DNA of 64,000 nucleotides from Chitinophagales bacterium (GTDB taxonomy: Bacteria; Bacteroidota; Bacteroidia; Chitinophagales; CAIOSU01): NCBI GenBank assembly GCA_026003335.1, contig BPHB01000001.1, positions 766,591-830,590 of the forward strand. The letters are read 5' to 3'. Both the position numbers and the translations under genes were made by a program. The notes under the pieces are model-generated. The model was not told the DNA's origin and did no database searches. It saw only the letters and a list, made by a program, of their open reading frames with translations. Below are positions 34,045-36,118 of this stretch, in pieces. Positions within the stretch are counted from its first letter, which is position 1. Each line of letters starts with the position of its first letter.

Positions 34045-35289
34045 ATGACAAATGATGTTTTTGCTAAATGTGAAACCCATGATGGTTACTTCGGTATGTT
34101 TCGCTCAATGGGCGACCGCTATTTTACCATGCCTGTTTTAGACCCTATTCCCGGCACAACTACGCTGTTTAATAGTCAGCGCTGCATTCAGTGGTCTATT
34201 AATAACTATCTCGGATTAGCCCAAAGCGAAGAGATAAAACAGGTAGCTGTTGAAGCGGCAAAAAAATACAGTACCAGTGCTCCTATGGGCTCCCGTATGA
34301 TGACCGGCAACACCCGATATCATGTAGAACTGGAAGAAGCCTTTGCCGAATATCTCCAAAAGGAAAGTGCCGTGGTGTTTAACTATGGTTATCTGGGAGT
34401 GCTGGGAACCATTCAGGCGCTTATAGACAAAAATGATACAATCCTGATAGATAAGCTCTCCCACGCCTCCATGCTGGATGCGATGTTTCTGTCACAGGGA
34501 AAATTCCGCGTTTTCCGGCACAATGATATGAACAGTCTGGAAGAGCACCTGAAACATATAAATCGCGATAGGAAGGGTGGTATACTGATTATGACCGAAG
34601 GCGTATTTGGCATGCAGGGTGATTTAGCTAAACTGGATGAAATTGCTGAACTGAAGGAAAAATATGATGCCCGTCTCTTTGTAGATGATGCGCATGGCTT
34701 TGGCATTATGGGTGATCAGGGGCGTGGTACAGCTTCTTATTTCGGAGTTCACGACAAGGTGGATATCTATTTCGGAACCTTTGCCAAGGCTTATGCCAGC
34801 ATCGGAGGCGTTACGGCAACCAAACATAACGTAGCCGAGTGGATTCGCTATAATGCACGCACGCAGGTGTTTGCCAAAAGCCTTCCGATGATTTATGTGG
34901 AAACATTGCGCAAAACCCTTGAGATTATCCGTACAGACGAAACACGCAGGGCCCGCATGTGGGAAGTATCCAAAAAGCTGCGCAGCGGGCTGCAGGAGCT
35001 GGGATACCATGTAGGCGATGTACCTTCGCCTATTGTACCTGTGTATGTTCCGGCCGGTGATGCTCAGATAGGTATGCAAATCGTTATCCGTCTGCGCGAG
35101 TTGGGTGTTTTTGTTACCGGAGTGGTTTATCCCGTTGTCCCGAAGGGAATTATTCTCTTCCGCATGATACCCACGGCAGCCCATAGCGATGAGGAGATAG
35201 ACATTACGCTGAAGGCCTACCGTCAGGTCAGGGATGAATTAAAGCTGAAACTAAACAACCCGGCTCCCGTGTCGGCCAGTCAGGATTGA
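34045..35289 (+). CDS. Alpha-oxoamine synthase, candidate serine palmitoyltransferase
   Basis: The protein has 414 residues, PLP-dependent fold type I. Visible are His140 (DKLSHAS, stacks on PLP), TEGVFGMQGDLA, DDAHGFG (Asp215, His217), and the PLP lysine Lys248 in GTFAKAYASIGG, where Ala replaces the Ser usual before Lys. NYLGLAQ and SAPMGSRMMTGNTRYHVELE are typical of the AONS/KBL/SPT family, which joins an amino acid to an acyl-CoA with decarboxylation. Bacteroidota use such an enzyme for sphingolipid synthesis. The SDR gene 13 bp downstream fits a 3-ketosphinganine reductase. KBL or a related ligase is the alternative. Confidence 0.75.
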   Translation: MTNDVFAKCETHDGYFGMFRSMGDRYFTMPVLDPIPGTTTLFNSQRCIQWSINNYLGLAQSEEIKQVAVEAAKKYSTSAPMGSRMMTGNTRYHVELEEAFAEYLQKESAVVFNYGYLGVLGTIQALIDKNDTILIDKLSHASMLDAMFLSQGKFRVFRHNDMNSLEEHLKHINRDRKGGILIMTEGVFGMQGDLAKLDEIAELKEKYDARLFVDDAHGFGIMGDQGRGTASYFGVHDKVDIYFGTFAKAYASIGGVTATKHNVAEWIRYNARTQVFAKSLPMIYVETLRKTLEIIRTDETRRARMWEVSKKLRSGLQELGYHVGDVPSPIVPVYVPAGDAQIGMQIVIRLRELGVFVTGVVYPVVPKGIILFRMIPTAAHSDEEIDITLKAYRQVRDELKLKLNNPAPVSASQD

Positions 35290-35302
35290 CTTTTTCTTGC
35301 GG

Positions 35303-36118
35303 ATGCAAAAACCTAAAGTGCTCATTACCGGAGCTTCCCGCGGTATCGGGGCGGCTGTGGCCTTACAGTTGCAGCGTGAAGGATACCAGGTAACAGGCAC
35401 CTCCAGAAATCCTGACGATACCTTAAAGGATATTCGTTTTCTAAAACTGGATCTGACTGCGCCTGAAAGCATTAAGAGTTGCATACGTGAAGCCGGTGAA
35501 ATAGATATCTTAATCAACAATGCCGGCATCAGCCAGATGGGAGCAGTTGAAGAAATTCCTCCCGAAAAAATAAGAGAGCTTTTTGAAATCAACTTTTTTG
35601 GAGCGGTGGAGATGATGCAAGCTGTGCTCCCCCGTATGCGGGCAAACCGGCAAGGGATGATAATTAATATTGGCTCTTTGGCCGGAAGATTTGCCCTTCC
35701 GTTCAGGGCCAGCTACTCTGCCTCCAAGTTTGCTCTGGCCGGCTTTACATGGGCTTTAAGAAATGAGGTAATGCCCTTTGGTATTAAAGTAACCACCATA
35801 GAGCCAGGAGATATTCGCACCGGAATAAACCCGGAGTTGTTTTTGCACCCAGAGTCGGAATACAGACCTTATCTGGAAAAAACCAGCAAGAGCCGTTCCG
35901 CATCCATGGAGCAAGCGCCTGAGCCGGAAAAGGTTGCCAGGGTTGTTACCTTCATAGTGCAGCGTTATTATTCCAAACCGGGCTACCCTGCCCCCTTTTA
36001 CTATGCCGGTAAACATGCGTCTTTTCTGGTGCACGCAAGCCGGCTCATACCTGATATATGGCTGGAAAAATTGATTCGGAAAAGCTGCGGATTGCAGGAT
36101 CACCTGCCGACTCATTAA
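35303..36118 (+). CDS. Short-chain dehydrogenase/reductase
   Basis: The protein has 271 residues from the ATG at 35303; a TTG two codons earlier is less likely. It is a classical SDR: TGASRGIG (9-16) for cofactor, NNAG (72-75), catalytic Ser125, Tyr138 and Lys142 (YSASK). Arg residues after the second strand (TSRNP) favour NADPH. The substrate is unknown, but the tight spacing behind the alpha-oxoamine synthase suggests it reduces that enzyme's ketone product, as 3-ketosphinganine reductase does. No signal peptide is seen. A hairpin follows the stop. Confidence 0.85.
   Translation: MQKPKVLITGASRGIGAAVALQLQREGYQVTGTSRNPDDTLKDIRFLKLDLTAPESIKSCIREAGEIDILINNAGISQMGAVEEIPPEKIRELFEINFFGAVEMMQAVLPRMRANRQGMIINIGSLAGRFALPFRASYSASKFALAGFTWALRNEVMPFGIKVTTIEPGDIRTGINPELFLHPESEYRPYLEKTSKSRSASMEQAPEPEKVARVVTFIVQRYYSKPGYPAPFYYAGKHASFLVHASRLIPDIWLEKLIRKSCGLQDHLPTH

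Follow-up and report, generated by a model that had tools for sequence, protein, structure and literature searches.

Which long-chain base is built by an alpha-oxoamine synthase (AOS) and a short-chain dehydrogenase/reductase (SDR) that sit side by side in the genome of a Chitinophagales bacterium? The two genes lie in a stretch of 64,000 nucleotides (the window), and an initial annotation read them as candidates for the first two steps of bacterial sphingolipid synthesis, serine palmitoyltransferase (SPT) and 3-ketosphinganine reductase. The evidence set out below points to another amino acid substrate, and we consider it very probable that the two genes specify one condensing and one reducing enzyme of capnine, or sulfonolipid, synthesis.

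The AOS gene (34045..35289, plus strand) encodes 414 amino acids, matches Pfam PF00155 and has alpha-oxoamine synthases as its best PDB matches. The SDR gene (35303..36118, plus strand) matches PF00106 with 166.5 bits, and its product carries a Rossmann TGxxxGxG motif (TGASRGIG), an NNAG motif and the residues Ser125, Tyr138 and Lys142. With the last base of the AOS stop codon at 35289 and the first SDR ATG at 35303, the spacer between the two (35290..35302, plus strand) measures 13 bp; the SDR open reading frame also has an alternative TTG start at 35297. In these respects the initial description of the pair is borne out. The contig that carries the genes measures 2.08 Mb and belongs to a 3.9-Mb genome with an estimated completeness of 100% and contamination of 1.5%. 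The pair is flanked, as judged by eye, by a site-2 protease-like gene and a gene for a secreted type IX cargo-like protein, both on the minus strand.

Affinities of the alpha-oxoamine synthase

A PDB search with the AOS returned SulA of Alistipes finegoldii (7u7h) at 379 bits, the cysteate-C-fatty acyltransferase 28eh at 364 bits and the SPT of Sphingobacterium multivorum (3a2b) at 241 bits. As described in the accessible part of PMC9304779, SulA condenses cysteate with acyl-ACP to form 3-ketocapnine, accepts neither serine nor phosphoserine, and has Asn53, Gly115, Tyr116, His140, Asp217, His220, Thr248, Lys251 and Arg376 as its PLP and catalytic residues. All of these are present in the AOS here, as N53, G115, Y116, H140, D214, H217, T245, K248 and R373, and they are invariant across 14 aligned sequences. 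The PLP lysine, Lys248 (codon 34786..34788, plus strand), aligns with SulA Lys251 and lies in the context TFAKAY; the initial annotation was right to read FAKAY at this position, but what it saw as a departure from the usual FSK is explained by the alignment, in which TFAK is the usual context for the cysteate acyltransferase clade.

Lys281, which is Ala in SPT, is given as the single clear active-site difference between SulA and SPT (PMC9304779, accessible part). Lys278 of the AOS (codon 34876..34878, plus strand) falls in this column, and in an alignment of 84 rows the column is occupied by Lys in 27/27 AOSs of the type found here (query-type), in 21/21 conventional cysteate acyltransferases (CATs) and in one Legionella relative, as against 0/35 other AOSs, which have Ala (18), Asn (9), Thr (6) or Cys (2). 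Because the same part of that report ascribes a structural role to Lys281 and does not settle how cysteate is selected, we treat this lysine as a marker of the clade and not as proof of the substrate.

The phylogeny is consistent with the marker. In an AOS tree of 83 rows, out of 112 collected, query-type sequences and conventional CATs form one group (SH-aLRT 100) in which the conventional CATs fall on one side of a branch (99) and the query-type sequences likewise (94), with the SPT rows separate (100); the AOS here belongs to the sister clade of the conventional CATs and not inside the conventional clade. Compared with the known cysteate acyltransferases (SulA/CapB/CFAT; 7u7h, 28eh), it is alike in its PLP residues, marker lysine, PMG and FAKSLP blocks, length, fold and tree group, but differs in being only ~39-49% identical, in belonging to a separate multi-phylum clade some of whose members are fused to a ligase and an ACP, and in preceding an SDR.

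How does SPT fare as an alternative? The AOS shares both the fold and the PLP residues and chemistry of SPT, and in a whole-fold comparison of the AOS model (pLDDT 83.6) SPT 3a2b ranks first (Z 47.4) and SulA 7u7h eleventh (Z 45.0). SPT and KBL folds score level with or above SulA; all AOS folds score alike, and the comparison does not tell these families apart. It is also true that no other SPT candidate was found in the genome, and that among the NCBIfam matches of the SDR the 3-ketodihydrosphingosine reductase model KdsR (NF049977) comes third, at 195.3 bits against a cut-off of 400. Yet a tree in which query-type sequences and SPT are held as one clade is rejected (p-AU 1.03e-06), the marker position is Lys and not Ala, the AOS scores far below the cut-offs of the SPT models (309 against 640, 306 against 500 and 217 against 670 bits), and a cysteate synthase is encoded in the same genome. 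Scores, tree, AU test and marker residue together rule out the sphingolipid reading as the best one, and a serine substrate and a ceramide product now appear highly improbable; the proposal failed because a third option, cysteate acyltransferase, had not been considered.

Among the matches listed, no NCBIfam cut-off is reached by either the AOS or the SDR. Models of BioF (327 bits) and KBL (318 bits) do figure among the best matches of the AOS, as would be expected if it were a glycine C-acetyltransferase (KBL) or an 8-amino-7-oxononanoate synthase (AONS) of threonine or biotin metabolism, but every such score is under its cut-off (426 for BioF; 460 for this KBL model and 493 for a second, matched at 262 bits). 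A search of the genome finds three AOS genes, the other two being a KBL at 693 bits (cut-off 493) and a BioF-like gene at 346 bits, short of its cut-off of 426, and the tree puts the query elsewhere; on this evidence a KBL or AONS identity has next to no probability and is ruled out. The comparison with SPT, KBL and AONS that had been suggested for this enzyme thus places it with SulA, and the tree does not group it with glycine C-acetyltransferases. Neither of the two findings that the initial annotation named as refuting its proposal, a grouping with glycine C-acetyltransferases or a clear SPT elsewhere in the genome, was obtained.

The nearest rows to the AOS in the tree come from Aminicenantes, Acidobacteria and Lentisphaeria MAGs (68-71% identity, support 98) and not from Bacteroidota, and the next-nearest from Haloplasma, Bacillota and Spirochaetota. 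In Bacteroidota, 139/395 genomes have matches to the AOS at E<=1e-90, comprising its own genome, three with fused query-type proteins and 135 with conventional CATs. This rarity, together with the nearest rows outside the phylum, suggests that the AOS was gained by transfer from another phylum. G+C shows no contrast (AOS 0.476, SDR 0.484, window 0.473), so that it is the tree from which the case for transfer comes.

The adjoining reductase

Whether the SDR acts on the product of the AOS is a separate question. Its best curated matches are general oxidoreductases. Among 14 query-type homologue loci, of which one (L025) was left out because its sequence stops just past the AOS, the AOS and an SDR stand side by side in 4/13 assessable loci (L023, L024, L026 and L027). 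These are assigned to four other lineages, and their SDRs are 41-54% identical to the SDR here. The conservation of the pair is more than chance. The Bacillus, Fictibacillus and Spirochaetota loci of the same set do not have the SDR next to the AOS. One of the paired loci, from Acidobacteria (L024), opens at the contig edge with the tail of another AOS gene (2-694) whose product has an FSKS context and Cys at the marker position; directly after it comes the query-type AOS, followed by the SDR, a lipid kinase gene and a PlsC-like acyltransferase gene.

It is unlikely, if less so than SPT, that the AOS is a cysteate acyltransferase and the SDR an unrelated general carbonyl reductase, the true 3-ketocapnine reductase being encoded elsewhere. 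Such a separation has parallels, as the 3-ketocapnine reductases of Chryseobacterium and Alistipes are, according to the accessible part of PMC11211663, SDRs encoded at scattered sites and not next to the acyltransferase gene. Moreover, the SDR here is only 32% identical to that of a conventional operon in a same-family relative (G017, see below), and the SDR beside the Aminicenantes AOS (L023 4072-4866) has His at the position of the catalytic Tyr. The maintenance of the pair in four other lineages argues the other way, as does the fact that the predicted AOS product requires precisely such a reduction; indeed, since the known reductases lie apart from the acyltransferase gene (as far as that source goes), adjacency here is an extra hint. 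We therefore predict that the SDR is a 3-ketocapnine reductase, and the earlier suggestion that the two enzymes act in sequence, condensation and then keto-reduction on a sphingoid-like base, is probably correct.

Sources of cysteate

The cysteate synthase of this genome (G000:C1:430970-432199) is of the archaeal type and matches TIGR03844 at 494.4 bits, exceeding the equivalog cut-off of 324.9. Enzymes of this family produce L-cysteate, with O-phosphoserine and sulfite as the presumed substrates. The gene lies outside the window, ~370 kb from the pair and in no operon with it, and in a tree its product groups with Spirochaetota homologues and apart from those of the only other Bacteroidota family in which we found it (100/100). 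The one CapA homologue found in the genome scores 476.6 bits with the CapA model NF053679, below the cut-off of 600, and 478.0 with that for cystathionine beta-synthase. As a side observation, cysteate synthase homologues of 42-45% identity occur on large Streptomyces plasmids (H2, NZ_CP108366.1 651278-652438; H3, NZ_CP109493.1 806487-807629).

Within Bacteroidota this synthase is rare. In a set of 60 genomes of relatives TIGR03844 was matched in one, the genome itself, while conventional CATs were found in 35 of the 59 others; across 395 Bacteroidota it was matched in nine, its own genome and eight of one other family (f50, L086-L093), and none of these nine is one of the 135 that encode conventional CATs (E<=1e-90). 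On these counts it is wrong to suppose that conventional Bacteroidota CATs are usually partnered by the archaeal-type synthase. The eight f50 genomes have AOSs only with Ala or Asn at the marker, so the synthase can exist independently of a marker-lysine AOS. The pairing of the two activities nonetheless has precedent, as an archaeal-type cysteate synthase takes the place of CapA in Alistipes and Odoribacter according to the accessible part of a review (PMC10191378).

A relative of the same family (G017; L169) offers a direct comparison, having an SDR, a CapA-like synthase and a CAT in one stretch on one strand. The best NCBIfam match of the CapA-like synthase is CapA itself, at 440.7 bits and below the cut-off of 600. 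This conventional Bacteroidota operon has the same three predicted activities that we propose here but differs in its cysteate synthase, which is of another family (CapA/cystathionine-synthase-like), in the subfamily of its SDR, and in its AOS, which is 41% identical to ours. The AOS here seems to replace the conventional CapA/CapB/CapC-like operon that this relative carries.

The strongest functional link that we found is in Spirochaetota. Query-type AOSs occur in 10/296 genomes of this phylum (485-564 bits), and TIGR03844 at E<=1e-60 is matched in exactly the same ten, nine of them above the cut-off and the tenth (G524) a fragment at 301.5 bits. Treating the genomes as independent would put the chance of this overlap at 8e-19, but that assumption does not hold; in the AOS tree the carriers are divided among at least two separate groups. 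AOS and synthase genes lie next to each other in four genomes (G009, G010, G012 and G709), of which only G010 and G709 belong to the 296-genome sample.

The main weakness of the capnine reading becomes apparent when all 27 query-type genomes are considered (the genome itself, 14 reached through AOS homologue loci, three with fused genes and nine more Spirochaetota). TIGR03844 is matched in 13/27 (12 above the cut-off and one fragment), and the remaining 14 have no match near the cut-off; many of these are MAGs and may be incomplete. They include Bacillus, Fictibacillus, Haloplasma, Aminicenantes, Acidobacteria, Lentisphaeria and the three fused-gene genomes, and among them are those of the three nearest relatives (L023-L025). 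The AOS encoded by Fictibacillus phosphorivorans is 58% identical to the one here. Eight of the 14 genomes each provided one cysteine-synthase-like protein for a comparison with CapA (L178, L179, L180, L181, L185, L189, L190 and L193, two of them from fused-AOS genomes), and its cut-off is reached by 0/8; the candidate CapA-like synthases in relatives turned out to be ordinary cysteine or cystathionine synthases.

Relatives of the AOS also bear on the acyl donor. In three Bacteroidota genomes of three families (G323, G248 and G288) the AOS is the last domain of a fatty-acyl-AMP ligase-ACP-AOS protein in open frames of 1113-1171 aa (loci L156-L158 and L166-L168), with domains assigned by Pfam in G323 and G288 and by reading the sequence in G248. 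These fusions fit an ACP-bound acyl donor. Near each of them is a gene for a two-domain VOC (glyoxalase-fold) protein, and a conserved two-domain VOC protein of ~350-375 aa adjoins query-type AOSs in Spirochaetota, Bacillota and Bacteroidota (L027 1958-3067, L031 7413-8468, L032 6813-7940, L034 4806-5870, L126 241-1404, L166 5707-6768 and L168 4285-5343). It has no close solved relative by sequence, its model is closest to 2,6-dichloro-p-hydroquinone 1,2-dioxygenase (4huz; Z 24.6, rmsd 2.9, 277 aligned), and no gene for it was found within the window.

A different source of cysteate is suggested by a plasmid of Legionella lytica (NZ_CP071528.1, L200 6986-11857), which carries a related AOS (46.5% identity) with the marker lysine, although the place of this row in the tree is unsure. 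The AOS gene is followed by one for a protein of 970 aa in which a fatty-acyl-AMP ligase, an ACP domain and a phosphosulfolactate synthase (PF02679, 273 bits; TIGR03849, 276.8 bits against a cut-off of 280) are combined, and then by a 2-phosphosulfolactate phosphatase gene (PF04029, 124 bits). In archaea, phosphosulfolactate enzymes lead to sulfolactate and sulfopyruvate, with cysteate one transamination further. The plasmid genes thus tie the clade once more to a sulfonated three-carbon precursor, and they may form a sulfonolipid operon.

It might still be that the AOS uses some other amino acid (phosphoserine, aspartate or alanine, for example), that the SDR reduces the corresponding ketone, and that the cysteate synthase is employed elsewhere. 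The 14/27 query-type genomes lacking a near-cut-off TIGR03844 match, the f50 family with its synthase and no marker-lysine AOS, and the structural role ascribed to Lys281 (in the accessible part of PMC9304779) would all suit such an enzyme. We nevertheless regard this as quite unlikely given the ten-for-ten agreement among 296 Spirochaetota, the adjacency of AOS and synthase in four genomes and the phosphosulfolactate synthase gene that adjoins the Legionella AOS. A. finegoldii SulA rejects phosphoserine (same source), but it is a different enzyme from the AOS here.

Proposed pathway and the extent of the clade

On the capnine reading, the substrates, products and order of steps that we infer are as follows. 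L-Cysteate would be supplied by the genome's own cysteate synthase, presumably from O-phosphoserine and sulfite. The AOS, with PLP on Lys248, would bind cysteate and join it to a fatty acyl thioester (probably acyl-ACP), releasing CO2 and giving 3-ketocapnine, and the SDR would then use NAD(P)H to reduce the 3-keto group and yield capnine. A later N-acylation, for which the enzyme was not found, would give sulfobacin-type sulfonolipids.

Sulfonolipids have been described as lipids of Bacteroidota and are said to trigger choanoflagellate development, to support gliding and to affect inflammation (PMC9304779, accessible part). A spread beyond this phylum was hinted at earlier, as homologues of Cys, cfat and kcr were reported across 13 phyla using permissive searches of human-associated genomes (PMC11211663, accessible part). 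The kind of enzyme is known; the novelty lies in the clade itself, in its distribution across phyla, in the fusions among its members and in the mixture of cysteate sources that serve it. No description of the clade turned up in the sulfonolipid literature searched on Spirochaetes, Salinibacter biosynthesis, Bacillus/Fictibacillus/Acidobacteria and Legionella, which was available mostly without full text. It is tempting to speculate, and we give it about an even chance, that sulfonolipid synthases have a further branch, made up of these enzymes and sister to the SulA of Bacteroidota, in Spirochaetota, Bacillota, Acidobacteriota, Aminicenantes, some other Bacteroidota and a Legionella, that this branch draws cysteate from at least two unrelated sources (the archaeal-type synthase and the phosphosulfolactate route), and that in some members a dedicated fatty-acyl-AMP ligase and ACP, fused to the AOS, keep the acyl chain tethered while the lipid base is made.

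If this is true, sulfonolipid producers could be predicted in phyla for which the literature searched, mostly without full text, named none, and the ligase-ACP fusions would allow the idea of an ACP-bound acyl donor to be tested directly. There is also a warning here for annotation, in that a Bacteroidota AOS-SDR pair should not be equated with sphingolipid synthesis until the Lys281 position and the cysteate source have been checked.
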